Source of the DNA: Bacteroidota bacterium
Lineage (GTDB): Bacteria > Bacteroidota > Ignavibacteria > Ignavibacteriales > Ignavibacteriaceae
Direction: 5' to 3'
DNA: 64,000 nucleotides
Assembly: GCA_022564295.1 (NCBI GenBank)
Contig: JADFLR010000007.1
Location: 62,001 to 126,000 of the forward strand
The notes below the pieces were generated by a model. The model was given only the letters and a program-made list of their open reading frames with translations, made no database searches and was not told the DNA's origin. The translations under genes were made by a program, and so were the position numbers. How positions within the stretch are numbered: the first letter of the stretch is position 1; every line of letters starts with the position of its first letter. This document shows, piece after piece, positions 1,400-29,846 of this stretch.

Positions 1400-3866
1400 T
1401 TTTTTTATAGTAGTTATTTTATTTCCTTTTTTTGCAACGGTAATTGCACAACAGCCAACCACCTATAAAATATTAGGTATTTCGGTTGAGGGTAACAAAA
1501 CCGCTGACCCTTCTACAATTATCCTGAACAGCGGGTTAAAGGTTGGTGATGAAATTCAAATACCGGGAGACAAAACTCTTAATGCCATAAGGCAGCTTTG
1601 GGCGCTTAATATATTTAAAGACATTCAGATACTAATTGACAGAGAAATTGCTGATGGTGTATTCCTTCTTATTAAAGTATCAGAGTATTCGAGAGTTGAA
1701 CGTGTAATTATTGAGGGGAATGATGGAATTGATACAGATGATATCGAGAAGGAAATTACTTTCCTGAGGGGATCAATTTTAAAACCACAGGATATATCTA
1801 AATTAAAAGGGAGAATATTGGACCTCTATAAAAAAGAGGGATATTTAAACGCATTCGTGAAAATCGAACGGTTCGTTTATTTTTCTGCCGATACATTAGA
1901 TGATGATATAACTGTAATCTGGAGAAATGAAAAAGACCTTTCGGATGAGTTACCGGTGGAATATTTTTCAGGAGAGAGATCCTATTCCAATTTGATAAGC
2001 AGAATAAAAGATCGTATTGTTCTAAAAATGACGATTGAAGAAGGAGATGAAGTTGTAGTCAGAAATATCAGTTTTTTAGGGAACACTGCTTTTGAAGAAG
2101 GCGACCTTGAAAGTGCAATGGATGAAACGAGCGAGGCAGTTTGGTGGCAGTTTTGGTCGAGTGCTGAATTTAATCCCGATAATTTTAAAAAAGATATGGA
2201 ACTGATTGTGGATTACTACCGCAGCCAGGGCTACAGAGATGCGGAAATAGCGTTAGACACCCTGATTTATTATAATAATAATAAAGACCTTGATATAGTT
2301 ATGAGGGTTTATGAGGGGCCTCAATATAAAATTAGAAATATAATCTGGGAAGGGAATACTGTTTACCCGGATCAAGTGTTAGCGCAAAGATTGGAATTTA
2401 GAAAAGGTGATATCTACGATTATAAAAAGTTTCAGGAAAACTTAAGAGGCAATGAAAGGCAATCGGATGTATCTGCATTATACCTCGATAACGGTTATCT
2501 TACTTTTAATCTTATACCTGAAGAAATAAGAGTCGCTGAAGATTCGGTAGATCTTTTAATTAGGGTTGAAGAAAGAAAACAATTTAGAATATCGAGAGTA
2601 GATATAACGGGAAACAGCAAAACAAAAGATAAAGTAATAAGAAGGGAACTTTATACAATTCCCGGAGATTATTTTAACCGTGGGTTACTTTTCAGAAGCG
2701 TTCAGCAGCTTGCTAATCTTAACTATTTTAGTGTTGAAAAATTATACGGTCCGCAGGGAATAGGAACTCAGATTGAAAGTGACAGTACTGTTGCCGTATC
2801 ATTTAATGTTGAAGAAAAATCGAGTGATTACCTTAATGCATCTGTAGGTTACAGCGGCAGTTTCGGATTCAGCGGCTCACTTGGAGTTACATTAACTAAC
2901 TTCTCAATTGCAGAACCGTTTTCGATGGGCGGCGGACAAGTACTTAGTTTTAATTGGCAGTTTGGTGTTGGAAACGTTTTCCGTACTTTTACTATTGGTT
3001 TTACAGAACCATGGTTTCTTGATACTCCAACTTCTGTCGGCATAGATTTTTTCGATACAAGACAACAGTTTGTTTATGATTTAAGACAAACAGGTACAAC
3101 CTTACGAGTTGGGCGCAGGCTAAGATTTCCCGATGATTTTTTCTTTGTTCAGGGTCTGTTTCGTTATCAGTTTAATAATGTAATTGAGGGTCAAAATTTT
3201 TACCGCGAAGGGATAACAAATCAGTTTACAGTTGGTGTAACACTTAGCCGCAGGAATATTGATAACCCAATATTTCCTTCTCAGGGCTCAGTGTTCTCGA
3301 TTAGTGCAGAAGTTTCAGGCGGACCATTTTTACCCGGTGATGTTGATTACCTAAAAATGGGTTTTAAGGCAGAATGGTATAAGCGGCTTTTTAACACAAA
3401 TAAACTCGTTTTTTATACCGTTGCTGATTTTGGTTACATCGATGAGTTTGTTAAAAATACACCTATTCAGCCCTTCGAGTTTTTCTTTATGGGTGGTAAT
3501 GGATTAGTAATTGCCACCGTTCCTTTAAGAGGATATGATGATCGTACGGTTGGACCGCGGAATGTTTTCGGCCAAATTATCGGTGGGCGAGTGATGACAA
3601 AGTTCGGTGCGGAAATAAGGTTTGCTGTTGCACTTGAACCCATACCTCTTTATGTTCTTGCATTTGCCGAAGCCGGAAATGTTTTTGAAAGTTTTGAGAA
3701 AACTGATATTTTCGACCTTCGAAGGTCTGTTGGTTTTGGAGCCCGAATACTTATTAACCCTATTGGCTTAATTGGTTTCGATTTTGGATACGGGTTTGAC
3801 AGACGAATTACTGATGGAAGAGACCCCGAGTGGTTATTCCACTTTCAGTTCGGAAGAGGATTTTAA
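1368..3866 (+). CDS. bamA: Outer membrane protein assembly factor BamA
   Basis: Central Omp85-family subunit of the machine that folds beta-barrel proteins into the outer membrane. I choose the ATG at 1368 over the upstream GTG at 1335 because it is preceded by AAAGG/TAAGG and gives a clean signal peptide (SFFIVVILFPFFATVIA, cleavage before QQ); the protein is then 832 residues. The N-terminal half, about residues 30-420, has repeated POTRA-like units (for example ILGISVEGNKTADPSTI, ISRVDITGNSKTKDKVI). The C-terminal half is a 16-strand-type barrel with the VPLRGYDDRTVGP loop-6 motif (L-R-G-Y) and ends in aromatic Phe (FQFGRGF), the usual beta-signal. Followed by two skp genes and lpx genes, the typical bam-skp-lpx order. 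Confidence 0.95.
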   Translation: MFRISLRKSFSFFIVVILFPFFATVIAQQPTTYKILGISVEGNKTADPSTIILNSGLKVGDEIQIPGDKTLNAIRQLWALNIFKDIQILIDREIADGVFLLIKVSEYSRVERVIIEGNDGIDTDDIEKEITFLRGSILKPQDISKLKGRILDLYKKEGYLNAFVKIERFVYFSADTLDDDITVIWRNEKDLSDELPVEYFSGERSYSNLISRIKDRIVLKMTIEEGDEVVVRNISFLGNTAFEEGDLESAMDETSEAVWWQFWSSAEFNPDNFKKDMELIVDYYRSQGYRDAEIALDTLIYYNNNKDLDIVMRVYEGPQYKIRNIIWEGNTVYPDQVLAQRLEFRKGDIYDYKKFQENLRGNERQSDVSALYLDNGYLTFNLIPEEIRVAEDSVDLLIRVEERKQFRISRVDITGNSKTKDKVIRRELYTIPGDYFNRGLLFRSVQQLANLNYFSVEKLYGPQGIGTQIESDSTVAVSFNVEEKSSDYLNASVGYSGSFGFSGSLGVTLTNFSIAEPFSMGGGQVLSFNWQFGVGNVFRTFTIGFTEPWFLDTPTSVGIDFFDTRQQFVYDLRQTGTTLRVGRRLRFPDDFFFVQGLFRYQFNNVIEGQNFYREGITNQFTVGVTLSRRNIDNPIFPSQGSVFSISAEVSGGPFLPGDVDYLKMGFKAEWYKRLFNTNKLVFYTVADFGYIDEFVKNTPIQPFEFFFMGGNGLVIATVPLRGYDDRTVGPRNVFGQIIGGRVMTKFGAEIRFAVALEPIPLYVLAFAEAGNVFESFEKTDIFDLRRSVGFGARILINPIGLIGFDFGYGFDRRITDGRDPEWLFHFQFGRGF

Positions 3867-11088: not shown

Positions 11089-11174
11089 TATTCTCTCCTG
11101 TGCGTTCCAACTTTTTTTCACACCCAAATTTTACCGGATTATTTTATACCGATTTAAATACTCACTAATCTTTA

Positions 11175-11196
11175 TTAAGTAATTATTTTTACTTAA
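11175..11196. promoter_or_regulatory. Possible operator: TTAAGT-N10-ACTTAA inverted repeat
   Basis: A 6-bp inverted repeat with a 10-base AT-rich spacer lies 35 bases before the ATG of the first T9SS-tail protein gene. The spacing of about one and a half helical turns is compatible with a dimeric regulator, but short AT-rich inverted repeats arise by chance in this composition. Confidence 0.25.
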
Positions 11197-11231
11197 ATTT
11201 AAATGCATGTTACATCTTTTACGGGGTAATT

Positions 11232-14186
11232 ATGAGAAATATTTTACTTTATCTGATTCCACTTCTTATTGGTTCCCCACAACTACATCTTTTGGCTCAA
11301 ATAGATGATATAACCCGTCTGCCAGTACAGAACCTTGCTCAATCAGTGAAAGAATCTGTTCCCGTATGGCTCTCAGATAATGAGATTATCATTTTTTACG
11401 TGTCACCTGAAAGGGATTCAATCTATTCGACGAAAAGCAATAATATAGGGTTAAACTGGGAAGAACCGAAAGAAGTGCAAACAGTTCAGATAGAGGACCA
11501 AAACCAGGAGCTTCTTTATCTTTCAGTTTTGAAAACAAATACCGGAAGATTAATTCTAAGCTGGTCAGTGTTAAAAGATGGAATGTATCTTGTTCATTCA
11601 GATGATGATGGAAGCACCTGGTCTGTTCCACAAAGGATTTTAGGTGGAGGTACAAATGATTTAACCCGGCAAAATTCAGAACATCTAAATTTGAGCCAGT
11701 TGAATGATGGGAGAATTCTTCTATGTTTTAACAAGGGAGCATTCTTAAATCAACTGTACTATAAAGAAAGTAGTGATGATGGAACTACATGGAGCGAGGA
11801 AGCAATAGAATTTCCCGGATTTGAATTAAGTGGTATGACCGAGCAAGATCTGTCGATAATTTCTTTAAATAATTCTGATTTACTCGCAATATTTCAAGCG
11901 AGACTTAACAATGTTTCGGGGATATTTAAACAAATAAGTATTGACAATGGAACAACCTGGTCGGATACTATCAGAATCCTAACAATTGGAAATTTTGATA
12001 AACCGGTTCCAAAAATTGTTAAGCGTGGCGATGGTTCACTGTTGCTTGCGTGTGTCAAAGAAGTGCCAACACAGATCTCAAATTTTAATCAAAAAGATAT
12101 TTATTATATAGTAAGTACAGATGGTGGAGAAATATGGCAGGAGGAAAAAAGATTTACAAAATATGTGGGTCATGATGAATATTTAAACATTTCACATTAC
12201 AACGGAAAAACTTTCGTATCTTTTGCAACTCAACGGTTTACAAATAAATTCCAAATATCCTACGGTATATTTGAGGAGTCTATTGAATCATTCACACCTC
12301 CCTATGTTATATCATCAAATTATTCACCTACGATTATAGAATTGGATTCACAGGAGTTTACTTTTCAAGCCACCATAATAGACAATAATTTAATCGAAAA
12401 CGTTTATGTAACATTTGCTGATTCATTGGTTGCAGGTGAACTTTTTGATGATGGTATGCATAATGATGAGGAACCGAACGATAATATATTTGCAAATACT
12501 TTCCCTTTGCCTAAAAGTTCCAATTCTATTTCACAGGTAATGACAGTAAATAATATTATACTTCCTTATAATAATAACGGCATATTAGCTGATGTAGAAG
12601 CAATGCATTCATTTAGTGCAAAAATACAATCAATTGATATTGACGGAAATGCAGGGAAATACTTTACTAACATTCAACTTAATTATTCGATTCATGGAGG
12701 CGAATATGAAGAGAGCGGTTTCTTATTCTCAGGAGGATTTTTCCTTTCAGGTTATACTAATGGAGAGCTATGGGCTAATGCCATGGCATCAGCATCGTTA
12801 ATTACTAACTATCTTCCGGGTAGAGTAAATGATGATCCTGACAATCCCAGAAATCTTGTGTATGTTATAAATTCAACCGATACACCATTCGGTATTAGAT
12901 GGCAGCAGTGGAAAGATGCTGTTCAATTAGGTGCTGATTTTTATGATGGAGACAAAAATGGTATTTATAGTCCTGTGGATAAAAACTGGAATGGTATCTG
13001 GGATCCGACAGAAGATATGCCTGATTTATTGGGTGATCAGACCGCCTGGTGTGTTTTTAATGATGGACAACCTGGAGATGAGAGACTACGTTTTGCCGGA
13101 GTTGATCCACAGGGAATCGAAATACAACAAACTCTTTTCGCATCTAGTTTGCCCGAATTGGAAAATGTAATTTTTATAAGATATAGAATTATAAACAGGG
13201 GCACGGTTTCTGAGATTCTGGATTCAGTATATTTTGCATTATGGAGTGATCCTGATCTGGGTGTTTTTTCTGACGATTTAGTGGGATCCGATACAACTCT
13301 TAGTTCTGCATTCTGTTATAATGAAAATGGGGATCAATTTTATGGCGAGAACCCGCCTGCATTTTTTACTACTTTGCTTCAAGGACCTGTAAAACTAACT
13401 TCCAATCCAAATGATTTAGGTTATGATCGAAAGGGACCACAGATCGGCAGCGAAGAATTTCCGGGTTATGAAAATCAGAGTATTACGTCATTTATACATT
13501 ATCGAAGTTCTGACCCGCTCCTCGGAGACCCTAATGATGAAATACAAGCACGGTATTATATGTTGGGATTAAATAAGGCAGGAAATCATATGAATCCTTG
13601 CGATGACCCCTGGGGTAGGGTACTGGGCGGGGTTGACTGCGGTGAAGTTAATCCTCTTTTTTGGTATTCGGGAGATCCGGTTGAAGAGATAGGATGGTTA
13701 ATGAACCTTAATGCGGATCAACGATCTATGCTAAGTACAGGTCCATTCAAATTGGAGAAAGATAAGCCAATAACTATAATCGGGGCGTATGTGATGGGAA
13801 GGGGAACAGATGCAATTAACTCAATAACTGTTGCAAGAGCAAATGTACAGAGAGCAATAGAAGAGTATAATAATAATTTCAGTTCACTTGCTTATGAACC
13901 TGGTGAACCAAGTTTTATTGTAACAGATTATATTCTATATCAAAACTATCCTAATCCGTTCAATCCTGTAACAACAATCAGGTATGAAATTCCTGAAGAT
14001 GGAATGGTAACAATAAAGATATATGATATACTAGGACAGGAAGTAAAAACAGTATTGAATGAATTCAAACAAGCAACCAGGTATGAAGTAGATTTTAATG
14101 CGAGTGGCTTAGCAAGCGGCGTTTACATTTACAGAATGCAAGTGAATGATTTTATCACAAGTAAGAAAATGATTTTAATAAAATAA
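11232..14186 (+). CDS. Secreted Asp-box (BNR) protein with calcium-loop core and T9SS sorting tail
   Basis: A 984-residue export protein. Signal peptide at 1-23 (LLYLIPLLIGSPQLHLLAQ). Residues about 60-340 contain sialidase-like Asp boxes (SDDDGSTWSVPQ, SSDDGTTWSEEA, SIDNGTTWSDT, STDGGEIWQEE), which fold as a propeller but do not by themselves prove sialidase activity; I see no FRIP motif or catalytic set. Residues about 480-890 form a second module shared with the gene at 15505, with Asp-rich loops (DGDKNGIYSPVDKNWNG) like calcium-binding sites. The last 80 residues are a type A T9SS tail: YQNYPNPFNPVTTIRYEIP to GVYIYRMQVNDFITSKKMIL. Expected to be exported across the outer membrane and attached to the surface or released. 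Native substrate unknown. Confidence 0.75.
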   Translation: MRNILLYLIPLLIGSPQLHLLAQIDDITRLPVQNLAQSVKESVPVWLSDNEIIIFYVSPERDSIYSTKSNNIGLNWEEPKEVQTVQIEDQNQELLYLSVLKTNTGRLILSWSVLKDGMYLVHSDDDGSTWSVPQRILGGGTNDLTRQNSEHLNLSQLNDGRILLCFNKGAFLNQLYYKESSDDGTTWSEEAIEFPGFELSGMTEQDLSIISLNNSDLLAIFQARLNNVSGIFKQISIDNGTTWSDTIRILTIGNFDKPVPKIVKRGDGSLLLACVKEVPTQISNFNQKDIYYIVSTDGGEIWQEEKRFTKYVGHDEYLNISHYNGKTFVSFATQRFTNKFQISYGIFEESIESFTPPYVISSNYSPTIIELDSQEFTFQATIIDNNLIENVYVTFADSLVAGELFDDGMHNDEEPNDNIFANTFPLPKSSNSISQVMTVNNIILPYNNNGILADVEAMHSFSAKIQSIDIDGNAGKYFTNIQLNYSIHGGEYEESGFLFSGGFFLSGYTNGELWANAMASASLITNYLPGRVNDDPDNPRNLVYVINSTDTPFGIRWQQWKDAVQLGADFYDGDKNGIYSPVDKNWNGIWDPTEDMPDLLGDQTAWCVFNDGQPGDERLRFAGVDPQGIEIQQTLFASSLPELENVIFIRYRIINRGTVSEILDSVYFALWSDPDLGVFSDDLVGSDTTLSSAFCYNENGDQFYGENPPAFFTTLLQGPVKLTSNPNDLGYDRKGPQIGSEEFPGYENQSITSFIHYRSSDPLLGDPNDEIQARYYMLGLNKAGNHMNPCDDPWGRVLGGVDCGEVNPLFWYSGDPVEEIGWLMNLNADQRSMLSTGPFKLEKDKPITIIGAYVMGRGTDAINSITVARANVQRAIEEYNNNFSSLAYEPGEPSFIVTDYILYQNYPNPFNPVTTIRYEIPEDGMVTIKIYDILGQEVKTVLNEFKQATRYEVDFNASGLASGVYIYRMQVNDFITSKKMILIK

Positions 14187-14201
14187 AAGAAGAGTGCAAA
14201 T

Positions 14202-15494
14202 ATGAAGTTAATTTTTTCTATAATTCTTTTTATAACTTCACTCTATCCTCAAAATGAGTGGTTAATATTAAATAAAAATAATTCACCAATAATAAGTAAT
14301 AAAGTATATAATTCTGTACAGGATATTGATGGAAATTATTATATAAATACAAATCAATCATTCTTTAAATTGTCTCCCCCAAATAATTGGGTGCGATTAG
14401 ATACTTTAAACTCGGTTTTTACTACTCCTCCATTTCGTTTATTTAAAGATAAATTTAATACAATCTGGGCTGCTGGAGATAATCTTTATTATTTGAAGAA
14501 TGGAATTTGGATTGAAATTAATGATAGTTTACCATCGAACGATGGTATTTCTGCAATTGCAGTTGAAGATACTAATACAATATGGTGTGGGACATATTAT
14601 AATGGTTTATATAAATATGATTTTAATCAATGGATAAAAGTGGGAAATGATCTATTTAATTATGAAATAAATCAAATAATTATTGATTCCTCAAATAGCA
14701 TTTGGATTGCAATGGATGATGGAGGTGGATTGGTTAAGTTAACTGGTTCCGATACAGTTAGAATTTACCATCCTGATTTTATCTCTCCAACAAGTGGTTG
14801 GACAAGCACAAACGGATTATTAATAGACAAAGAAAATCAGAATAAATTATTAATTACTGCAGAGCATATTATGCCACATACTAATACTAATTTCCTTGCA
14901 GAGTATGATATGGCAAATGATAACTGGACGTTATATGATAGTGCTGCTGTAAATAGTAGAGTATTGCCTTCTAAATTGGTCCTTACAAATGACCAGAATA
15001 ATAAGAAGTGGATTGGAACAATGACAACAGGAATATTAACTTTTGATAATGGCACTTTTAATTTTATTACAAAAGATAATTCTGGTTTGCCTGAAAACAC
15101 TGTCTGGAGCTTAATGATAGATTCATATAATAACAAATGGATTTCAGGTTATCCTAATTATGGGATTGCAATATTTAATGAAAATGGTATAGTAAATATT
15201 ACTTCTGTTGATTACAATTTTAATAGTACTCAAGATTTTCAGCTTTATCAAAACTACCCAAACCCCTTTAATCCATTTACAAAAATCAGTTATCAAATTC
15301 CACGGCAAGGTTTTGTAACTCTAAAAATATTTGATGTACTTGGAAGAGAAATTGCAACCCTTGTAAATGAAGAAAAACCGGAAGGAAGATATGAGGTTAA
15401 TTTTTCTGCCACTGGCTTAACTAGTGGTGTTTACATTTATAGAATGCAAGTGAATGATTTTATCACAAGTAAAAAGATGATATTGATCAAATAA
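14202..15494 (+). CDS. Secreted propeller protein with T9SS sorting tail
   Basis: A 430-residue protein starting 15 bases after the previous gene. Signal peptide at residues 1-16 (LIFSIILFITSLYPQ). Residues about 25-330 hold Reg_prop-like blades: NTIWCGTYYNGLYKYDFNQW, SNSIWIAMDDGGGLVKL, NKKWIGTMTTGILTFDNG, NKWISGYPNYGIAIFNENG. The final 80 residues are a type A T9SS tail (YQNYPNPFNPFTKISYQIP). The DNA for that tail is a mosaic: its first 164 bases are almost identical to the tail of the next gene, and its last 54 bases share a perfect 32-base run with the tail of the preceding gene. Substrate unknown; likely part of a small surface-protein operon with its two neighbours. Confidence 0.7.
   Translation: MKLIFSIILFITSLYPQNEWLILNKNNSPIISNKVYNSVQDIDGNYYINTNQSFFKLSPPNNWVRLDTLNSVFTTPPFRLFKDKFNTIWAAGDNLYYLKNGIWIEINDSLPSNDGISAIAVEDTNTIWCGTYYNGLYKYDFNQWIKVGNDLFNYEINQIIIDSSNSIWIAMDDGGGLVKLTGSDTVRIYHPDFISPTSGWTSTNGLLIDKENQNKLLITAEHIMPHTNTNFLAEYDMANDNWTLYDSAAVNSRVLPSKLVLTNDQNNKKWIGTMTTGILTFDNGTFNFITKDNSGLPENTVWSLMIDSYNNKWISGYPNYGIAIFNENGIVNITSVDYNFNSTQDFQLYQNYPNPFNPFTKISYQIPRQGFVTLKIFDVLGREIATLVNEEKPEGRYEVNFSATGLTSGVYIYRMQVNDFITSKKMILIK
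15243..15406 (+). repeat. Direct repeat copy A: T9SS tail-coding segment
   Basis: 164 bases that match 16969-17132 with only three differences, all adjacent (15302-15304 against 17028-17030). The flanking DNA of the two genes is much less alike, so the near-identity is restricted to the sorting-tail coding segment. Confidence 0.95.
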
Positions 15495-17220: not shown

Positions 17221-17396
17221 AAAGTTAAATATGATTTTTGAGTATATGTTTTAATAATCGATACTAATTCGGTAAATGGAATTTGTTTTTGATATTTCAA
17301 TCGGCTCAACCACTTATTGCTGTCTCCCATTTCTCTTTAACAACATTCATATTATCACTATTTTAAACATTACTTTTCAAATATTCAGGATGGATA

Positions 17397-18392
17397 ATGA
17401 TAAAACTCTCTGAGAACCGAATAAAAGAATTAAAACATAATTTTGAGGGAAAAAGAATTGCGATAATTGGTGATATGATGCTTGACGGTTACTTTTGGGG
17501 TGATGTAAAAAGAATTTCGCCTGAAGCCCCTGTTCCTGTTCTTGAAGTTGAAGAAGAGTTTTTCCGTTTTGGCGGTGCAGCTAATGTTGCGTTAAATATT
17601 TCTACTCTTGGTGGAATTCCTATTCCAATCGGTGTAATTGGTGATGATAACAATGGTGCAATTTTTTCCTCTCTTCTTAACGATTCAAAAATATCTGATA
17701 ACGGGATAATTATTGATGATACAAGACCAACAACAACTAAAACAAGAGTTATTGCTGACAGCCAGCATGTTGTTAGGATTGATAAAGAAAGCAAGGAATA
17801 TTTAAATAGCAAAATGGAGGGGAAAATATTCGATTATGTTAAAAAAAATATTAATGATCTTGATGGAATAATTCTTCAGGATTATAATAAAGGTGTTTTA
17901 ACCGAATTGCTTATAACAAAAATTGTTAATGAATCAAATGAAATGAATAAACTTATAACTGTTGATCCGAAATTTGAAAATTTTTGGAGCTATAAAAATG
18001 TAACTGTATTCAAACCAAACAGAAAAGAAGTTGAGGAGAAACTCGGACTAAAAATTACTTCATCCGAAGATGTTTCTTTTGCAGGCAGTAAGCTACTTGA
18101 AAAATTAAACGTACAATATGTTCTTTTAACTTTAGGCGAAGAGGGAATTGCCGTATTTGAAAAAGGCAAAGAAGAAAAACGGATGCCAACTAAAGCAAGA
18201 AAAGTTGCCGATGTTTCAGGTGCGGGCGATACGGTTATCTCAACTTTAACTTTATCACTTGCTGCCGGAGCAGATATTTTAGAAGCATCTTATCTTGCAA
18301 ATTATGCAGGAGGAATAGTATGTGGCGAGGTTGGAATTGTACCTGTTGATAAAGAAAAATTATTTACAACTATTATTGATGATAATAAATGA
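17397..18392 (+). CDS. rfaE1: D-glycero-beta-D-manno-heptose-7-phosphate kinase (HldE kinase half)
   Basis: Phosphorylates heptose 7-phosphate at C1 on the way to ADP-heptose for the LPS inner core. 331-residue PfkB/ribokinase-fold protein: FRFGGAANVALNISTLGG near residue 57, substrate region DEDTRPTTTKTRVIADSQHVVRID-like segment (residues about 104-126), and the ATP/anion-hole motif ADVSGAGDTVISTLTL near residue 270 with the catalytic Asp. Not fused to the nucleotidyltransferase, which is the next gene and overlaps by 4 bases. The starting ATG follows GATAATG with a weak GGA box upstream. Confidence 0.9.
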   Translation: MIKLSENRIKELKHNFEGKRIAIIGDMMLDGYFWGDVKRISPEAPVPVLEVEEEFFRFGGAANVALNISTLGGIPIPIGVIGDDNNGAIFSSLLNDSKISDNGIIIDDTRPTTTKTRVIADSQHVVRIDKESKEYLNSKMEGKIFDYVKKNINDLDGIILQDYNKGVLTELLITKIVNESNEMNKLITVDPKFENFWSYKNVTVFKPNRKEVEEKLGLKITSSEDVSFAGSKLLEKLNVQYVLLTLGEEGIAVFEKGKEEKRMPTKARKVADVSGAGDTVISTLTLSLAAGADILEASYLANYAGGIVCGEVGIVPVDKEKLFTTIIDDNK

Positions 18393-18868
18393 ACTCTATA
18401 AAAACCCTTGGGGTAATGAAGGAGATAAGGCAGCAGCTTAAAGATAAAAATAAAAAGGTGGTTTTTACAAACGGCTGTTTCGATCTTATTCACGCAGGGC
18501 ACATCGATTATCTTTCAAAAGCGAAAGCATTCGGAGATGTTCTGATAATTGGTTTAAATAGCGATGCCTCTGTGAAGAGAATTAAAGGAAGTGAACGACC
18601 AATTCTTAAAGAAACCGAGCGTGGTTTTATCATTTCAAATCTAAAACCGGTTGATTATGTTGTGTTGTTTGATGAAGACACACCAAAGTTGCTTATAGAG
18701 GAACTGTTACCCGACATTTTAGTTAAAGGTGCAGACTGGGAGATTGAAAATATTGTAGGCAAGGATGTTGTTCTTGCCAAAGGCGGAGAAGTGAAGACGA
18801 TAGAATTTGTTAATGATCAGTCCACATCAAAAATTATTAAGATCATAGTTGATAGATTTAAAGATTAG
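18389..18868 (+). CDS. rfaE2: D-glycero-beta-D-manno-heptose 1-phosphate adenylyltransferase (HldE transferase half)
   Basis: Adds AMP from ATP to heptose 1-phosphate, giving ADP-heptose. 159 residues of nucleotidyltransferase (cytidylyltransferase-like) fold: VVFTNGCFDLIHAGHIDYL with the HxGH motif, then LIIGLNSDASVKRIKGSERPI and the C-terminal ADWEIENIVGKDVVLAKGG segment. Starts with an ATGA overlap on the kinase gene, so the two halves of what E. coli makes as one HldE protein are translated together. Split genes are the normal arrangement in many non-enterobacterial lineages. Confidence 0.92.
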   Translation: MNSIKTLGVMKEIRQQLKDKNKKVVFTNGCFDLIHAGHIDYLSKAKAFGDVLIIGLNSDASVKRIKGSERPILKETERGFIISNLKPVDYVVLFDEDTPKLLIEELLPDILVKGADWEIENIVGKDVVLAKGGEVKTIEFVNDQSTSKIIKIIVDRFKD

Positions 18869-18883
18869 AATATAGGTTAAGAT

Positions 18884-21800
18884 TTGCTCTTCAGAAAAGA
18901 CCCTAAAATAAAACGATCACTTTTCCGAAAAATTGTGAACGGCTTTATTTATTTTGGAATTGGTATAATTGCTGCGCTTTTGATGCTTTTTGCTTTTTCT
19001 CAAACTTCGACATTCCGTGATTGGCTTCGGGAAAAAGTTGTTACAACAGTAAACGGTTCTATAAACGGTGAACTATCAATTGAAAGTATAGACGGCACTG
19101 TTTTTACTGCTTTAATTCTTAACAACACTGTTTTAGTGCAGGGGCGCGATACTTTACTCTATGCTGAGAAAATTGAATTACGTACAAGTCCCCTCAAAAT
19201 TCTTTTCAAAACTATCTACTTCCGAAAAATTGAACTAACAAATGCTAATATCTATTTCCTAAAAGATGAAGCGGGTGAGTTTAATATTTCAAAGCTCACA
19301 AAACCATCGGAGGAGGAGGAAATAGAAGACTCTGTTTCTTCAGAGTTCACATTTAAAATACAGGTTGCCGATTTCTCCTTAAATAATGTTGATCTCAATC
19401 TTCAATCTTTCGAGAATAAAAACAGTGCGGAAGTTTATGATACTCTTTATACTGATGACCTAAGACTAAAGAATATCAACCTTTCACTAAATGCATTCGC
19501 TGATTTCTCAAGCAAAGAAATACGACTGAGTATAAATAATTTTTCGGTTAAACCTAATTTGCGCGGTTTTGTAGTGGAAAATCTTACGGGTGATTTTTTG
19601 ATTAACAACGATGAAGTAATTGTAAGTGGACTGAATCTAAAAACTAAGCGTTCAAATATTTCGTTAAATGTTTCGGTTAAGAATTTTCCGGTATTGGGCG
19701 GCGATATACAAATCGAAAAAGTCCCCTTTCGCTTAGATTTATTTGCTGATGAATTTAATTTTGATGACCTGGCAAATTTTGTACCTGCAATTGAGTTACT
19801 TGAGGGTTCGATAAAAACAAATATTCGCATCCGCGGAACTCTTGATGAACTTAATATACAAAACCTTGATATTGCGATTAACAAAACACGATTACGGGGA
19901 AGAGGAAATGTTAAAAATGTTTTGGATGGTGCACAAATGCTGATTGATGTAAATTTCTCGGAAAGTTATATCCATTCGGCTGATCCCGATTCGATATTAA
20001 GAACAATAGATATTCCTGTTTATGATGGTTACGGCACAATTAAATTCGACTCTCTATATTTTAAAGGTGAACCGCTGAAGTTTAAAGCCGGAATGCTTGT
20101 AAAAACCGATAGGGGACAGTTTGATGCAATTGTTGCACTGGATTTAACTAAAGATGATATAATTTATGATGCAGTTATGCTAACTCAGAATTTTGATTTG
20201 GCTCCTTTTACAGGTTTATCCACAACTTTGAACAGTCATATTATTGTAAAGGGCAAAGGGACTTCTCCGGATAGTATGGACACTCACATTTCAGTTATTG
20301 GCAACTGGTCTGAAATACAAAACAGAAATTATCAAAAACTAATCTTTGATTTAACGGCATCTGGCGGCGATATTATTTACGATCTTTCATTTAAATCTGA
20401 TACCACTACTGGTGATGTTTCCGGTAAAATTAATTTTACAGATCTTTCTAATCCTGTTTATGAAATTAACGCCTCCTTACGAAATTTTAATATCGCAAAT
20501 CTGATTCCCGGTTCTGAACTGGAAACAAATATTAACATAAATATTACAGCCAGTGGAAATCATTTTGATCCTGATAGTATTGAACTTTTTGCCGTCTTCG
20601 CACTCGATAGTTCTATAGTCGGAGATATTGAATTGAATAATAAAAAAGTAATAGTTGACTTAAGAAATGATTACGAAGGCAGCAGAGTGATAAACGTTGT
20701 TTCAAACCTGGCTGATATAACTTTAAGCGGTCAGTTTTCAATTTTGGATATTGCTTCAGTCATTACGGCTGAAGCAAATCTGATTACTGATTTTATAGAT
20801 CAAAGTATTGAAAAAATCAACCCTTCTGAAACTAATGTGTCTTATGATCAAACCGAACCGGTGTATTTGCCGGAGAATATGGTGGATATTAATTATTCCA
20901 TAGAGTTTAAAGATTTTGAACTCCTTTCTTTATTGCTCGGAAGTATTGACATAGAAATCGATGGTGATATAAGTGGATTCATTAAACGTAACGGCGATTC
21001 ATTGTCAGTTTCCGCTTTGCTGGATGTAAATTATTTTAAATATCTGGAAGCAGGTGAACTTTATTTTATATCGGGTATGAAACTTAACGCGGAAGTAATT
21101 AACGATTTTTCCATTGAATTCCCCTCATCATTTACCTCGAAAATTGACTTATCTGTACACGAAATGTTTCTTAATGAAAAGATTCACGATTTAGATTTTG
21201 CTGCTGAAATAAATCATCATGATGTAACGTTAGATTTCAGCGGGCAGTTAGATAATTATCTTACAACTCAGCTTAATGGCAGTATCGTTTTAAATGATAA
21301 CATTGCCAGTTTGCTGCTTGATTCTTTAATTATTACGTACAACAATTTTGATTTATGGAATAAAAATAAAATTAATATTACATATTCAAATGAGCAATTT
21401 ATTTTTAATGAATTTACCATGACTCATAATCCGGGAGATATTGAAATAAACGGATTGTTTTCCCTCACTAATGATCAAAACCTCTCGCTGCATATTAAAA
21501 ATCTGTCCGGAGAAGATGTGAGTCGCGATGTATTTAAAGTACCTCCCGAAACAGGTTTTAATTCAAATATTGATCTAACAGCTTTTTGGCAGGGTACTGC
21601 TGTTTCACCATTGTTAAATATGAATTTAAATGTGGATGATATTAGTATAAAGAAAAGGAAAATAGGTACGCTTATTACCTCATTGATTTATGATAACAGC
21701 GGATTGAATGTCGATCTTAATTTTTTAGATACTCTTTATAATATTAAAAACCCAAAACTTAAAATTGAAGGAGTACTTCCAATTGATCTTTCATTGCAAC

Positions 21801-23371
21801 AATCAGAACTAAGAGAATACGGTAAAAAATTACATCTTTCGCTGGAAGCGAATGATTTTGAGTTGGTTACATTATCCGGTTTAATTCCATTTATTAAAGA
21901 TTTAAAAGGAGAATTGATTGGTGAAATAAATATTGATGGAACAATGGAAGATTTGAATATTTCAGGTAATGCAGCAATACATGATGTTTCCTTTACGGCA
22001 GAACTAAATAATATAAAATATGAAGCGTTTGCTAGTGTTTTACTTGAGAATGATGACATTATAATAGACAGCTTATATCTTAAAAATACCGAAGGCACAA
22101 ATGGCGGAGGCACGATTGTAGGTGGAGGAAAAATCACACATAAAAATTTAGAAGTTGGAAAAATGATTTTTACTGCTGAGGGAAAGTTAAAAGTTTTAGC
22201 AAAAGAAACCCGGGCTGCAAATCCAACTATTTATGGCGATCTATCAATCACTACCCACGGCAATATGGTTTATATTTATGATGATAATGAAAATTCCTTC
22301 AGTGCAGAGTTATTAATTAATAAAGGTGCCGAAGTAACTATTACGCCGGCTCGTTCCGGATTCTCCACCTCATCCGAAAGATTTATTTACCAGTATAAAA
22401 CATATTTATCAACTTATGGTGATAATGCTTTGATTGATAGTTTAATTGTTCTCAGCGACTTAATAAGCAAGCGAAGGGGAACAAAACCTTCTCGTCCGAA
22501 TAATCTTAACCTTCGAATAAAAATTGATGTTGAAGATGAAGTAAAAATTGTTTTTGTGCTTTCACCCGAGTTCAAACAAAATCTTACTGCTTACCTTGCC
22601 GGGAATTTTGAATATTCAATAGTTGACAATAATCCAGTTGCAAGAGGAGAATTGAACTTACTCGAAGGTTCAAAGTTAGAATTTATCAAACCTTTCGAAG
22701 CATTGGGCTCTGTTAAATTTTTCGATGAGATTGATAATCCTTATTTAGATGTAACTGCTTCCTATCACGATTATTACTTAACATCTGATACGGTTGGAGT
22801 AACCAGCGGTGAGAAGGAAGTTGAAATCAGAATACAGCTTGAAGGTCCATTAAATGAGATGAACAAGAATTTCATTCAGCAGGAAGGAAATATTAGCGTT
22901 TATATTCGAGATAATAATCTGGCTGATTACCAGCTTGATGCAACCAAAACTTCTTCGGATGCAATAATGTTTATCATAGTTGGTAAGTTTACGGATGATG
23001 CGACAAATCAGGATAGAAATGTTGCTGCTTCAACAGCCGCATCTTTTGCCGGTTCGTTGGTCGGCAGTTTCCTGAATCAAAAATTTGGAAATTATATTAG
23101 GAGTGTACGTTTTCAGAAAGTTGGTTCGGAAACAAAATTCAGCTTAATTGGTAAAGCAGATATATCTAGTTTGGAGTTCCGTTATGAATTTGGCGGTACT
23201 TCACAGGTATTTCAGGATTTAAGCCGCGCGAATGTTAAAATTGAAACTTCGCCAATCACACCTTTGAGAAATTTAATATTAAGATTTCAAAGAAGAGAGC
23301 CATTACAAGGTAACTCAACCTACGGAGAAATGATCGATGAGTTCGGAATAAAATACAGGTTTGATTTTTAA
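18884..23371 (+). CDS. tamB: TamB-like translocation and assembly module protein (DUF490 C-terminus)
   Basis: A very long periplasm-spanning protein (1495 residues) of the TamB/AsmA-like family, anchored by one N-terminal membrane helix (FIYFGIGIIAALLMLFAFS, about residues 24-42). These proteins form a hydrophobic-groove bridge between membranes and are linked to autotransporter assembly and phospholipid movement. The body is repetitive beta-strand sequence; the DUF490 region in the last ~400 residues includes IKIDVEDEVKIVFVLSPEFK, DYQLDATKTSSDAIMFIIVGKF and SLLGKADISSLEF-like strands, ending RYEFGGT...GIKYRFDF. Start is TTG at 18884, with AGGTTAAG upstream. No canonical TamA is next to it; the Omp85-like protein at 25481 is two genes downstream. 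Confidence 0.88.
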   Translation: MLFRKDPKIKRSLFRKIVNGFIYFGIGIIAALLMLFAFSQTSTFRDWLREKVVTTVNGSINGELSIESIDGTVFTALILNNTVLVQGRDTLLYAEKIELRTSPLKILFKTIYFRKIELTNANIYFLKDEAGEFNISKLTKPSEEEEIEDSVSSEFTFKIQVADFSLNNVDLNLQSFENKNSAEVYDTLYTDDLRLKNINLSLNAFADFSSKEIRLSINNFSVKPNLRGFVVENLTGDFLINNDEVIVSGLNLKTKRSNISLNVSVKNFPVLGGDIQIEKVPFRLDLFADEFNFDDLANFVPAIELLEGSIKTNIRIRGTLDELNIQNLDIAINKTRLRGRGNVKNVLDGAQMLIDVNFSESYIHSADPDSILRTIDIPVYDGYGTIKFDSLYFKGEPLKFKAGMLVKTDRGQFDAIVALDLTKDDIIYDAVMLTQNFDLAPFTGLSTTLNSHIIVKGKGTSPDSMDTHISVIGNWSEIQNRNYQKLIFDLTASGGDIIYDLSFKSDTTTGDVSGKINFTDLSNPVYEINASLRNFNIANLIPGSELETNININITASGNHFDPDSIELFAVFALDSSIVGDIELNNKKVIVDLRNDYEGSRVINVVSNLADITLSGQFSILDIASVITAEANLITDFIDQSIEKINPSETNVSYDQTEPVYLPENMVDINYSIEFKDFELLSLLLGSIDIEIDGDISGFIKRNGDSLSVSALLDVNYFKYLEAGELYFISGMKLNAEVINDFSIEFPSSFTSKIDLSVHEMFLNEKIHDLDFAAEINHHDVTLDFSGQLDNYLTTQLNGSIVLNDNIASLLLDSLIITYNNFDLWNKNKINITYSNEQFIFNEFTMTHNPGDIEINGLFSLTNDQNLSLHIKNLSGEDVSRDVFKVPPETGFNSNIDLTAFWQGTAVSPLLNMNLNVDDISIKKRKIGTLITSLIYDNSGLNVDLNFLDTLYNIKNPKLKIEGVLPIDLSLQQSELREYGKKLHLSLEANDFELVTLSGLIPFIKDLKGELIGEINIDGTMEDLNISGNAAIHDVSFTAELNNIKYEAFASVLLENDDIIIDSLYLKNTEGTNGGGTIVGGGKITHKNLEVGKMIFTAEGKLKVLAKETRAANPTIYGDLSITTHGNMVYIYDDNENSFSAELLINKGAEVTITPARSGFSTSSERFIYQYKTYLSTYGDNALIDSLIVLSDLISKRRGTKPSRPNNLNLRIKIDVEDEVKIVFVLSPEFKQNLTAYLAGNFEYSIVDNNPVARGELNLLEGSKLEFIKPFEALGSVKFFDEIDNPYLDVTASYHDYYLTSDTVGVTSGEKEVEIRIQLEGPLNEMNKNFIQQEGNISVYIRDNNLADYQLDATKTSSDAIMFIIVGKFTDDATNQDRNVAASTAASFAGSLVGSFLNQKFGNYIRSVRFQKVGSETKFSLIGKADISSLEFRYEFGGTSQVFQDLSRANVKIETSPITPLRNLILRFQRREPLQGNSTYGEMIDEFGIKYRFDF

Positions 23372-25480: not shown

Positions 25481-28400
25481 ATGTTGAAAAAAATATTATA
25501 TCTCTTGACTGTTATAATTTTATTTCAGACGAATTCTTTCTCTCAATTCGGTCAGAATAAAGTACAATATAAAACATTCGATTGGTACTACATACAAACC
25601 AATCATTTTGATATATACTTTGACGAGCAGGGTGATGCGCTTGCGGAATTTACTGCATACGCTGCTGAAGATGCCCTTGAAAAAATTCTGGATAGTTTCA
25701 ATTATAATATAAATAACAGAATAACCATTATCGTTTACAACTCGCAGAATGATTTTCAGGAAACAAACGTTACCGATTCTTATCTTAGTGAAGGCATTCA
25801 GGGGTTCACAGAATTATTCAAGAACAGAGTAGTTGTTCAATTTACCGGTTCATACAAAGCATTACGGCATCTCATCCATCACGAACTATCACACGCTGTT
25901 ATTAATGATATGTTTTACGGTGGTTCTCTGCAAAATATTATTTCAAATAACATAACTCTTCAGCTACCACTTTGGTTTAATGAAGGATTAGCAGAGTATC
26001 AAGCTCTAGGTTGGAATATTGAGGAAGATATGTTTATTCGAGATGCTGCCATTGGTGAGTATTTGCCGGATGTATCACAATTAACTGGTTTCTTTGCTTA
26101 TCGCGGCGGTCAGGCAGTGTTCTATTATATTGCAAAAAAATACGGTAAGGAAAAGATTGGCGAACTTATCCACAAACTAAAAGGTGTTGGTAATATAAAT
26201 GAGGCATTCAAACAAACATTGGGTTTATCGATAAAAGAATTTAATGAGCGCTGGAGGAAGGATATTAAGCGAACGTATTGGCCCGATATTGAAGTAATGT
26301 TTGATCCCGATGAATATGCAAAAAGATTGACTGATCCTGAAGAAGATGATGGATATTATAATACAGGACCGGCACTTTCTCCTAAGGGTGATAAAGTTGC
26401 TTTTATAACAAATCGTGATTTCTTTTTTAGTTTATACCTGATGGATGCTCATACCGGCGAAATTATAAAAGAGCTTGCTGAAGGTAACATTGCTCCCGAT
26501 TTCGAGGAACTTAATATAATCGCTCCCGGCTTAACCTGGTCTCCCGATGGAAAAACACTTGCAATATCTGCATTAAGCCATGGTTACGATTTAATATATT
26601 TATTAGATGTTGAGAATGAAGAGTTTACAACAATCTCGCTTGATCTTGATGCGATTAACGGCTTAAGCTGGTCATGGGATGGAAAGTCTTTGGCTTTCGT
26701 AGGTCAAACACCCCGTCAATCGGACATTTATGTATATAACCTCGAAACTGAAGAACTTAAAAATCTTACAGATGATATTTTCAGCGATAGTGACCCTGAA
26801 TGGAACCATAAGGGAGATGAAATATATTTTATATCCGATCGCAGTAATTATTTAACAAAGGATTCCGTTCCCGAAGGGTTTAAGATTAATAAACACAATT
26901 ATAAACAAACCGATATTTATGTTGTTAATGTTAACACATTAAAAGTCGGACGAATAACTGATCTCCCCAACAGTGATGAATCATTTCCGGTTGTTAGCGA
27001 AGACGATAAAGAAATACTGTTCATTTCGGATATGAGCGGCATTAAAAATATTTATAAGAAAAGGATTGTATTTTCAAGATCGGATGAAAACATCAGCAGT
27101 ATAACAGAAGTTAAATCTGTCCCTGTTACAAATTCACAAAGCGGATTGTATCATCTTTCGGCTTCTCAGGATGGTAAAAAAATAGTTTTCACTTCCTTAT
27201 ATAACAGGTCGTACAATATCTTTTTAATGAACAATCCATTCGAATATGATTTAGAGCTTGATTCATTGCCCCTTACAAAATTCAGGAAAGGACTTTTTGA
27301 TATCTCAAGATCAACTGAAGTTGTTTCGCAGCATAAAGATGAAGAACAAACAGATGAATCGGAAACAGATATAAATGTCGATTCACCTTTCTTTACGGGA
27401 AATGTTATTGATACTTCAAGTGTTTACGGCGATTCAATTCAAGTTGATTACGGCAATTATGTTTTTGGTGGAAAGAATGAAATTAATAAACCGGCGAAAG
27501 ACAGTGCAAACATTGCGTTTAATCCAACAGATAACCTGGATGAGGACGGCAACTTTTTAGTTAATAAATATAAAGTCACATTTGGTCCCGATCTTATATA
27601 CGCAAATGCGGGTTATAATACTCTTTACGGATTTGTCGGTACCACGGTCATCAGTTTTAGTGACGTTCTTGGTAATCATAGGTTAATAGGAATAACAGGT
27701 TTACAAATTGATTTAAAAAACAGTGATTATGGTTTGGCTTACTTCTATCTTGCTAAAAGAATTAATTGGGGAATCCAGGGTTTCCACACAGCCAGGTTCA
27801 TCAATCTTCTGAGAGGAAATCGTGTAGAACTTATCAGGTACCGGAACTTTGGTCTTGTAGGTACAGCAAGTTATCCTCTCAATCGTTTTTACAGGTTCGA
27901 GTTGGGAGTTAGCTGGCTAAACATTAAAAGTGAGAATTTAGTTACTATCGCTGAAGAGCCGGAAAGTGTTTCGCTTGTTGTCCCCTCGATAAGTTTTGTT
28001 CACGATAATATTTTGTGGGGATATACGGCTCCCATAGAAGGAACACGTTATAGAGTTGATGTTCTCGGAAATCTTGGATTTGATGATCCGAAATTAAGTT
28101 TTGTTTCTCTTTTAGGTGATTACAGGACCTACTTTAGATTTTTCACAGATCATTCTTTAGCATTAAGATTTTCCGGCGGATTCTCAGACGGAAATAATCC
28201 ACAGCGATTTTTTATAGGAGGAATAGATAATTGGATCAACCGCTCGTATGCAACTACCGAAGTTCCAATTGAATCAGTTTCAGATTTTGCTTTTCTTTCT
28301 GCTGCTCTACCACTAAGAGGTTATAATTATGCTGAACAGATTGGAACAAGATATGCGCTAATGAATATTGAATTAAGATTTCCTCTTATCAGGTATCTTG

Positions 28401-28669
28401 TTACAGGAGGTCTTCCCATTTTGTTAAGTAATGTCCAGGGCGTTGCATTTATTGATATTGGAACCGCCTGGAGTAAAAACAGCGAACTTAGTTTGTTCAA
28501 AAGAGATAGATTCGGCAATCTTGTTACAGATGATTTGCTGGTGGGAACAGGTGTTGGTGCTAGAGTTTTCTTCCTTTACTTTTTATTAAGATTTGATATG
28601 GCATGGGCTTATAATATTGAAGGTTTTTCAAGTCCCAAATTCTATTTCTCCATAGGCGCAGATTTTTAA
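25481..28669 (+). CDS. Gluzincin peptidase / TolB-like propeller / Omp85-like barrel fusion protein
   Basis: A 1062-residue protein with a signal peptide (ILYLLTVIILFQTNSFS). Residues 134-138 are HELSH, a zinc HExxH motif, followed 30 residues later by WFNEGLAEY with Glu168 as a likely third ligand; this matches the peptidase-MA-like gluzincin pattern. Residues about 295-600 contain six PD40-type blades (LSPKGDKVAFITNR, TWSPDGKTLAIS, SWSWDGKSLAFVG, EWNHKGDEIYFISDRS, VVSEDDKEILFISDMS, SASQDGKKIVFTS). Residues about 690-1062 look like an outer-membrane barrel with an LRGY motif at 945-948 (PLRGYNYAEQIGTRYALMNI), the loop-6 signature of Omp85 proteins, and a Phe at the end. POTRA domains are not visible. 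Database records may call relatives TolB or a peptidase. Function unproven. Confidence 0.7.
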   Translation: MLKKILYLLTVIILFQTNSFSQFGQNKVQYKTFDWYYIQTNHFDIYFDEQGDALAEFTAYAAEDALEKILDSFNYNINNRITIIVYNSQNDFQETNVTDSYLSEGIQGFTELFKNRVVVQFTGSYKALRHLIHHELSHAVINDMFYGGSLQNIISNNITLQLPLWFNEGLAEYQALGWNIEEDMFIRDAAIGEYLPDVSQLTGFFAYRGGQAVFYYIAKKYGKEKIGELIHKLKGVGNINEAFKQTLGLSIKEFNERWRKDIKRTYWPDIEVMFDPDEYAKRLTDPEEDDGYYNTGPALSPKGDKVAFITNRDFFFSLYLMDAHTGEIIKELAEGNIAPDFEELNIIAPGLTWSPDGKTLAISALSHGYDLIYLLDVENEEFTTISLDLDAINGLSWSWDGKSLAFVGQTPRQSDIYVYNLETEELKNLTDDIFSDSDPEWNHKGDEIYFISDRSNYLTKDSVPEGFKINKHNYKQTDIYVVNVNTLKVGRITDLPNSDESFPVVSEDDKEILFISDMSGIKNIYKKRIVFSRSDENISSITEVKSVPVTNSQSGLYHLSASQDGKKIVFTSLYNRSYNIFLMNNPFEYDLELDSLPLTKFRKGLFDISRSTEVVSQHKDEEQTDESETDINVDSPFFTGNVIDTSSVYGDSIQVDYGNYVFGGKNEINKPAKDSANIAFNPTDNLDEDGNFLVNKYKVTFGPDLIYANAGYNTLYGFVGTTVISFSDVLGNHRLIGITGLQIDLKNSDYGLAYFYLAKRINWGIQGFHTARFINLLRGNRVELIRYRNFGLVGTASYPLNRFYRFELGVSWLNIKSENLVTIAEEPESVSLVVPSISFVHDNILWGYTAPIEGTRYRVDVLGNLGFDDPKLSFVSLLGDYRTYFRFFTDHSLALRFSGGFSDGNNPQRFFIGGIDNWINRSYATTEVPIESVSDFAFLSAALPLRGYNYAEQIGTRYALMNIELRFPLIRYLVTGGLPILLSNVQGVAFIDIGTAWSKNSELSLFKRDRFGNLVTDDLLVGTGVGARVFFLYFLLRFDMAWAYNIEGFSSPKFYFSIGADF

Positions 28670-29177: not shown

Positions 29178-29846
29178 ATGATAAATTTACTCAATAAAAT
29201 ACTTGTTGTACTAATCCTGTTTTATTTTACCAGCTGCCTAAATTATGTACAGGAAGTAAAGCTTTATCCTGATGGCTCAGGTAAAACGCATATTGATTAT
29301 TGGATGAAACTACCTGATGAAGAAAGTAAAACGGTTGCCGGTAATATTGGAATTTTTAATCCAGATTCAATCAGGAGTGAATTTAGCTCGGTTCATATTA
29401 ATATAGTAAGTATTGAAGTTCATACCGATACAACAGACAGTACAACCCACGCGATTATTGATTTCACTTTTGACCATATTGATTCACTAAACCTCACTAA
29501 AGCTTTTAGTGATGCCAATTTCACTTTTCAGGAAGGTCCATCGGGCGTGATAAATTTCACACAATTCATCCCCTCTATTGCAACAGGTTTTGGCATTGAT
29601 GCAACTCAATATAACGTATCATATATCTATACTTTTTCCGGAACAATCTTAAGGCATAACGCTCATCTGGTTGAGAAAAGAACTTTGACCTGGAATTACT
29701 CTTTAGCAGATATTGGTGGTGGTAAAACAATATCCGTAACATTCAGACCTTACAAGCTTAAAGAAACCCCCAACTGGATATATATGCTTACAGGTACAGT
29801 ATTGGCTTTGGTAATATTTTTTCTCTTAAGAAAGCAAAAAGTTTGA
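29178..29846 (+). CDS. Lipoprotein-like protein with C-terminal membrane helix
   Basis: A 222-residue protein with an N-terminal hydrophobic segment ending in YFTSC, a probable lipobox with Cys20, and a C-terminal hydrophobic helix (WIYMLTGTVLALVIFFLLR) followed by KQKV. Between them are mostly beta strands (VQEVKLYPDGSGKTHIDYW). The combination of a lipobox and a C-terminal anchor is seen in some envelope proteins of this group. I do not recognise a family or catalytic motif. Confidence 0.6.
   Translation: MINLLNKILVVLILFYFTSCLNYVQEVKLYPDGSGKTHIDYWMKLPDEESKTVAGNIGIFNPDSIRSEFSSVHINIVSIEVHTDTTDSTTHAIIDFTFDHIDSLNLTKAFSDANFTFQEGPSGVINFTQFIPSIATGFGIDATQYNVSYIYTFSGTILRHNAHLVEKRTLTWNYSLADIGGGKTISVTFRPYKLKETPNWIYMLTGTVLALVIFFLLRKQKV

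Follow-up and report, generated by a model that had tools for sequence, protein, structure and literature searches.

The gene and its three domains

The window analysed here, a stretch of 64,000 nucleotides from a Bacteroidota genome of the family Ignavibacteriaceae (assembly GCA_022564295.1, contig JADFLR010000007.1), contains an intact single gene at 25481-28669 on the plus strand. Its frame runs from ATG to stop and encodes a protein of 1062 amino acids that joins a predicted zinc-peptidase, a TolB-like propeller and an Omp85-type barrel. None of the listed minus-strand open reading frames of at least 100 amino acids overlaps it, and the minus frame that was read carries many stops. The features of the gene are as follows (A2 is the alignment described below; pLDDT is the predicted local distance difference test, the per-residue confidence of the model).

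25481-25546, plus strand: signal peptide, residues 1-22; signal-peptidase-I type by eye, with no lipobox Cys; pLDDT below 50
25547-25570, plus strand: mature N-terminal tag FGQNKVQY, residues 23-30; the same kind of tag occurs in paralogues and dead-peptidase homologues
25586-26344, plus strand: predicted gluzincin-type zinc-peptidase domain, residues 36-288; PF13485, with a fold like M9 collagenase, M30 lugdulysin and M1
25880-25894, plus strand: predicted zinc-binding motif HELSH, residues 134-138; from the sequence and A2
25982-25984, plus strand: E168, predicted third zinc ligand; invariant in A2
26099-26101, plus strand: Y207, predicted transition-state tyrosine; invariant in A2, with a spacing near that of E242/Y315 in the title of PDB entry 7bb9
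26345-27250, plus strand: six-bladed TolB-like propeller, residues 289-590; PD40, Z 27.3 against TolB, blades counted by hand
27314-27514, plus strand: disordered linker, residues 612-678; pLDDT below 50, and residues 591-690 hold no invariant column in A2
27551-28666, plus strand: predicted Omp85 16-strand barrel, residues 691-1062, ending in Phe; PF01103, TamA and BamA folds, predicted strands
28313-28324, plus strand: loop-6 motif LRGY, residues 945-948; R946 and G947 invariant in A2

AlphaFold2, run on the full protein with 60 aligned sequences, returned a model (pLDDT 84.3, predicted template modelling score (pTM) 0.82) in which residues 1-22 are of low confidence, 36-280 are mixed and helix-rich, 293-585 form six blades, 612-678 are disordered and 701-1058 form a barrel. 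Blades and barrel strands were counted by hand on this model, short strands omitted. Alignment A2 comprises the query and 59 homologues that are 37-74% identical to it: of the best 80 loci, 66 passed a filter that required a length of 700 to 1250 amino acids, fully determined residues and the tag motif close to the start, and 59 were aligned, seven that were partial or lacked a clear start being left out. In whole-protein scans of a second set, A1 (20 members, query included), the peptidase and PD40 were each matched in 20/20 and Omp85 in 6/20.

The earlier note on this DNA had recognised a peptidase, a propeller and a barrel from motifs, and all three assignments are borne out by profile search and structure prediction. 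HELSH at 134-138 and E168 within WFNEGLAEY stand where it placed them, and the domain matches Peptidase_MA_2 at residues 61-263 (E 4.7e-11; 43.3 bits against a cut-off of 32.4). By mean identity in A2 the peptidase is the most conserved of the domains (55%, compared with 48% for the barrel, 44% for the propeller and 23% for residues 591-690), and H134, E135, H138, E168, E172 and Y207 are invariant in all 60 sequences, the query among them. This pattern fits a working enzyme, and the invariance of the catalytic residues rules out a chance HExxH.

Because propeller proteins and barrels fill the top 50 Foldseek matches of the whole model, the peptidase domain was folded alone (pLDDT 85.1, pTM 0.83). 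The resulting model aligns with M9 collagenases at Z 18.1 and a root-mean-square deviation (rmsd) of 3.3 across 225 residues. For M30 lugdulysin the values are Z 16.2 and rmsd 6.2; among M1 aminopeptidases Z reaches 14.5 (rmsd 7.7), and one match combines a Z of 14.0 with an rmsd of 3.4. HExxH, a downstream Glu and, through the M9 match, a thermolysin-like fold place the domain among the gluzincins of clan MA. The likeness to M9 collagenases and M30 lugdulysin extends over the whole domain fold but comes with only 10-15% identity over the aligned part, and a profile search of the domain against solved structures returned no peptidase among its matches. Members of families M9 and M30 carry an HExxH, a later Glu and a Tyr. 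In the present protein Y207 stands 72 residues past E135, close to the 73 that separate E242 and Y315 in the title of lugdulysin entry 7bb9, and it is therefore probably the transition-state tyrosine, which would make it a likely additional catalytic residue. Zinc binding and peptidase activity are predictions from these comparisons.

The propeller matches PD40 (E 3.7e-12) and is modelled as six blades of three or four strands each at 293-585. Aligned to a TolB structure with VIA-align it gives a Z of 27.3 (rmsd 2.4 over 247 residues). It shares the TolB fold; unlike TolB, it is one of three domains and misses the TIGR02800 cut-off (113.3 vs 343.15 bits).

Omp85 is not listed in the whole-protein Pfam scan; residues 691-1062 alone match PF01103 (9.4e-12, 45.5 bits, cut-off 24). 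The model has 16 long strands at 701-1058, and LRGY (945-948), of the Omp85 form [VL]RG[FY], lies in the loop 905-956 between strands 11 and 12 in both model and alignment; the final residue is Phe. The best Foldseek match of the whole model is TamA (8us1, 4.4e-11), with TolB and BamA among the top matches, and the barrel aligns to Flavobacterium johnsoniae BamA in VIA-align with Z 24.7 (rmsd 3.9 over 313 residues). By hand count the loops after odd strands total 105 residues and the turns after even strands 32, a distribution that fits periplasmic N-terminal domains.

The 16-strand barrel and the loop-6 RG motif are thus shared with BamA, TamA and TamL, the motif being LRGY in F. johnsoniae BamA and VRGF/Y generally, according to the accessible text of PMC12611786. 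Two differences set the protein apart from them. POTRA domains are missing, as the earlier note had said, PF07244 matching neither the protein, nor its pieces, nor any of the 20 A1 members, and the curated NCBIfam cut-offs are far from reached: the whole protein scores 36.3 vs 400 bits on TamL (2.2e-9) and 18.9 vs 1050 on the Deinococcus-type BamA, and the barrel alone 26.5 vs 297.15 bits on BamA.

Distribution, paralogues and a branch with a dead catalytic site

A match is present in 59/59 sampled genomes of the window's genus, family and order, its own genome included, at an identity of at least 51% where the match is near-full-length in one piece and at least 47% in a few two-piece matches. 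In a sample of the phylum 134/198 genomes match at E 1e-15, paralogue types included, and 64/198 do not. Among named genomes at least 572 of 590 stretches were confirmed, the best 80 bearing titles of Ignavibacteria, Melioribacter, Chlorobiota, Kapaibacterium, Balneolaceae, Roseithermus, Calditrichota, KSB1 and Marinimicrobia. These matches rule out a gene unique to this genome. A mixture-model tree groups Roseithermus (Rhodothermota) with Balneolota and Marinimicrobia with Calditrichota, as expected under vertical descent; the protein is an old, widely inherited one of Bacteroidota and neighbouring phyla.

Two groups of paralogues accompany this main branch. Group B includes a second protein of the same genome, of 942 amino acids on contig C37, with peptidase, propeller and Omp85 matches. 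Group C (13 rows) combines peptidase and propeller with a C-terminal region that shows no LRG at the aligned position; a further row, L087, was moved from it to the main branch, since it has VRGY and falls inside that branch in a first tree. HExxH and the Glu are kept in 5/5 group B rows and in 14/14 rows originally called group C. We withdraw the reading that group C lacks an Omp85 barrel: whole-protein scans miss true members, and although Pfam Omp85 matches 0/7 of its C-terminal pieces, 5/7 score on the NCBIfam BamA or Omp85 models (best 7.3e-11, all below cut-off), so these too are probably diverged Omp85-type barrels.

Eleven places in the window's genome match Omp85. Its BamA lies in the window itself, at about 1335-3863 and about 22 kb upstream of the gene, and scores above the BamA cut-off; the frames after bamA look LpxD/LpxC/LpxA-like by eye. 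A patatin-POTRA-Omp85 (PlpD-like) protein of the same genome is found at L183:7700-10432.

Protein searches with a diverged homologue against 9 genomes and with an alignment against 41 genomes revealed 20 full-length homologues, one per genome, in six families (f20 and f32 six each, f29 four, f33 two, f31 and f40 one each). HExxH is gone in 20/20 of them, and the loop-6 [LM]RG[FY] is kept in 20/20. In 19 of them the tag is FG[KRQ][NV]R, in the remaining one YGKNR, and the terminal Phe is present in 19/19 complete rows. A 21st protein, from family f35, has its site intact and belongs to the main branch. The copy of G232 has a TAA flagged inside the match, and its open frame alone was used; the tally leaves out same-family genomes such as G162 and G115. 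Full-length alignment and motif together suggest that the Omp85 barrel is retained in this branch.

In the mixture-model tree, which comes from a short search and carries Shimodaira-Hasegawa-like approximate likelihood ratio test (SH-aLRT) support only, 18 of the 20 dead rows form one clade that is sister to 19 live rows, and groups B and C, with their sites intact, lie outside both clades when group C is the outgroup. The first tree, made without a mixture model, placed the dead rows with the paralogues; it drew a long-branch warning and was set aside for the mixture-model tree. Given the group C root, this topology is most simply read as a single loss of catalysis, after which the protein was long retained. 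As HExxH was lost while the protein was kept, catalysis is not indispensable in those lineages. The earlier note had proposed a coupling of proteolysis to insertion; its three domains, missing POTRA and predicted outer-membrane barrel stand, whereas the coupling is conjectural.

The tag, FG[KRQ]N[KR]xxY or a close variant, follows directly on the predicted signal cleavage site. As the filter and the collection scan both relied on the tag, the invariance seen in A2 is in part built in; the paralogues and the dead branch, retrieved by protein search, provide independent evidence. It occurs in 5/5 group B paralogues and in 9 of 14 rows originally called group C, the rest being four rows displayed too short to tell and L087, which has no tag. 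A degenerate tag pattern matches four places in the genome: this gene, the C37 paralogue and a further pair, one member of which runs across a stop codon. A reversed control pattern matches three. Model confidence at the tag is moderate, with a mean of 69 for residues 21-30; when the domain is folded alone, its first ten residues average 56. A conserved, weakly structured mature N-terminus of this kind suggests a docking epitope.

Neighbouring genes

The genes immediately upstream lie on the same strand.

17367-18865, plus strand: PfkB kinase and cytidylyltransferase frames (stop-bounded), presumably of the heptose/lipopolysaccharide precursor type
18884-23371, plus strand: TamB gene; PF04357 1.6e-13, the only copy found by protein search of the genome
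23371-25467, plus strand: RNase R gene rnr; RNB domain 1.6e-111, 13 nucleotides upstream of the gene start

A PF04357 profile search of the genome found no TamB, though hmmscan of the TamB protein does match PF04357. Synteny was counted in 98 of 100 loci (L171 and L173 yielded no target), a non-random sample in which some loci are cut by contig ends and two, L081 and L178, are near-identical. In 42/98, both genes lie upstream on the target's strand, rnr at most two and tamB at most four called genes away, and there the stop-bounded frames of the target and the preceding gene overlap or stand at most 128 nucleotides apart. These 42 loci come from the window's class, Balneolaceae and families f16, f26 and f27. 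Downstream, at 29178-29846 of the window, is a gene for a 222-amino-acid protein with no Pfam match above cut-off, which is often found one or two genes downstream in Ignavibacteria.

Possible roles in the outer membrane

The likely role of the protein is in building or policing the outer membrane. More specifically, we tentatively favour, as a possible but by no means secure reading, a vertically inherited outer-membrane Omp85 protein that acts as a periplasm-facing assembly or quality-control factor, BepA and BamA combined. Several lines of evidence lead to it: the TamA/BamA, TolB and gluzincin folds, with a barrel family match above cut-off; the barrel topology, the conservation of the peptidase, and tamB and rnr upstream in 42/98 loci; and the dead homologues, which keep the tag, the loop-6 motif and the terminal Phe. 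A fourth is the precedent of BepA, which both promotes the maturation of LptD and degrades it.

BepA, a soluble protein of Escherichia coli, differs from the protein described here in belonging to peptidase family M48 and in acting on a separate beta-barrel assembly machinery (BAM) complex. What the two would share is a periplasmic zinc metallopeptidase that serves the assembly of outer-membrane proteins both in a chaperone-like way and as a protease; the accessible text of PMC8423444 describes BepA as promoting LptD maturation and degrading stalled LptD and misassembled BamA. With a propeller, a peptidase and an Omp85 barrel, a protein could combine both BepA roles at a single site; what remains in the dead branch would be the half that needs no proteolysis.

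From the anatomy, the conservation, the loss of the catalytic site and the gene neighbourhood, we infer a model that extends to periplasmic topology, zinc, proteolysis, clients and insertase activity. The 16-strand barrel would sit in the outer membrane, with the peptidase and propeller hanging into the periplasm in place of POTRA domains. Propeller and tagged N-terminus would receive or dock clients or partners, the Omp85 barrel would provide the site at which clients are inserted or held, and the zinc endopeptidase would trim or remove those that stall. The BepA-like division of labour, chaperone-like and protease functions at BAM, would thereby be united in one chain with its own barrel, of which one branch of the phylum would have lost the protease site and kept the chaperone or scaffold part. 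A more ambitious version, in which the protein is an ancient outer-membrane assembly part of the Fibrobacteres-Chlorobi-Bacteroidetes (FCB) superphylum, an Omp85 insertase that receives clients through a protease and propeller module where POTRA would be, became a pseudoprotease once in the ancestor of one branch of the phylum and retained the tag as its docking epitope, is rather doubtful as a whole.

A number of points weigh against our reading. In the Marinimicrobia, KSB1 and Calditrichota loci, and in several from the window's class, no tamB-rnr linkage is visible, and synteny may reflect expression rather than function. The 64 phylum genomes without a match indicate that the role is replaceable, and the genome's own BamA and further POTRA-bearing Omp85 proteins that the protein here is an additional one. 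C-terminal pieces of the dead branch match Pfam Omp85 in 0/3 cases at 0.1, and one of two matches an NCBIfam Omp85 model, at 6.9e-8 and below cut-off. The structure was modelled as a chain alone, without metal or complex. Finally, we found no functional study in the open-licence literature, and no client, partner or activity is known.

Part of the architecture is already in print. A TolB-like propeller ahead of an Omp85 barrel, without POTRA, defines the WD40-Omp85 subfamily, which Heinz and Lithgow named in 2014 and likened to a BamA-BamB fusion, as the accessible text of PMC4104836 has it. The protein likely belongs to their set. The word "peptidase" occurs 0 times in the main text of that paper, whose "Metallo" class is, in its accessible part, a different domain (PF00149), and that part describes no peptidase, tamB linkage or dead branch. 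Open-licence literature on WD40-Omp85 proteins, on POTRA-less Omp85 proteins and on Omp85 proteins with TamB offered no other description and leaves the peptidase unmentioned. Beyond this, the present analysis contributes the live peptidase, whose site was apparently lost once, along with the tag and the linkage to tamB and rnr.

New BAM subunits reported in 2025 changed the picture of outer-membrane assembly in Bacteroidota (PMC12611786); in the accessible text of that paper the F. johnsoniae subunits are BamA, D, G, H, M and P, and the present family is not among them. Membership of that published complex found no support, "peptidase" and "propeller" both occurring 0 times in the main text of PMC12611786. 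Likewise, the accessible part of the TamL paper PMC12045153 makes no mention of the family. Together, a conserved barrel with a built-in protease and the natural experiment of a dead protease site in a retained protein make it possible to ask whether Omp85 proteins need POTRA domains and whether assembly and quality control are one machine.

An alternative, which we consider unlikely, is that the protein is the outer-membrane partner of TamB: TamB would bridge the envelope, the barrel would take its lipid or protein cargo, and the peptidase would process or guard. The position of tamB two genes upstream here, and within four in the linked loci with rnr nearer, speaks for it, as do the single TamB found by protein search and the barrel's score on TamL (2.2e-9, though far below cut-off). 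The genome's best TamL-scoring POTRA-bearing protein, on contig C13, cuts both ways: it sits elsewhere, before a YicC-like gene, but with 1e-48 on TamL and 1.1e-51 on BamA, neither reaching cut-off, it is the more ordinary TamA candidate. The idea of the present protein as sole stand-in for TamA is not supported in view of that TamL score. The lack of tamB linkage in the Marinimicrobia, KSB1 and Calditrichota loci also counts against a TamB partner, and no tamB was recognised by eye in the dead-peptidase loci. As a side observation, the YicC-like frame (by eye) follows this TamL-scoring POTRA protein at L182:9161-12441, and in family f32 the dead-peptidase homologue also adjoins such a frame in three of the four loci read.

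Less probable again is a service to type IX secretion, for example by assembling or clearing away the giant SprA barrel or secreted cargo. SprA_N (PF14349) occurs in 133/134 phylum genomes with a match and in 21/64 without, so that 43 lack both; it is also found in 21/22 genomes of the named loci, Marinimicrobia, KSB1 and Calditrichota among them, the exception being that of L170. The one matching genome without SprA, G060, has a group C type as its best match. In family f32, porU (identified by PF01364 in the single copy scanned, by eye in the rest) and a PorV-like gene named by eye are close to the dead homologue in 4/4 loci read, and in three genomes sprA is within about 8 kb of the homologue. 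We counted the overlap without taking it as proof. The 21 genomes with SprA and no match belong to families f22, f25 and f30; the 19 joint absences listed are all from f21 (the other 24 are unlisted). The joint absences may be one event, and shared ancestry alone may explain the overlap. On the more ambitious version of our reading, large barrels such as SprA could be among the clients, since nearly all sampled genomes that have the protein also have the type IX translocon. Separately, two proteins with type IX sorting tails (Por_Secre_tail) and BNR or regulator-propeller repeats are encoded a few genes upstream, at 11169-15491 of the window.

It is more improbable still that the protein is an exporter of the type Vd (PlpD-like) kind, which moves its own peptidase and propeller to the cell surface. 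An enzyme domain before an Omp85 barrel is common to both, and the passenger-then-barrel order and the long disordered linker would suit such an exporter. PlpD-type proteins have POTRA domains between passenger and barrel. Here POTRA is absent, although the patatin-Omp85 protein of the same genome has it, the enzyme is a different one, a propeller is added, and one branch has lost the active site of the supposed passenger while keeping the tag and loop-6 motif. For PlpD itself, delivery of a lipolytic domain to the surface is given in the accessible text of PMC4104836. Least probable of all is a peptidase domain that is non-catalytic everywhere and merely a folded docking module, which the persistence of the dead branch would allow but which the invariant catalytic residues in 60/60 sequences of the other branch, and the intact HExxH and Glu throughout the group B rows and those originally called group C, argue against.

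Two minor observations concern other Omp85 and propeller genes. Contig C30 of G000 (L186:7522-15088) encodes three Omp85-family proteins in tandem, of 877, 880 and 629 amino acids, with no POTRA matches. At L005 / L007 (G000 C31, 12432-13197) TolB-like propeller repeats are split across two frames, a frameshift or pseudogene, next to what by eye is a TIR-like protein.

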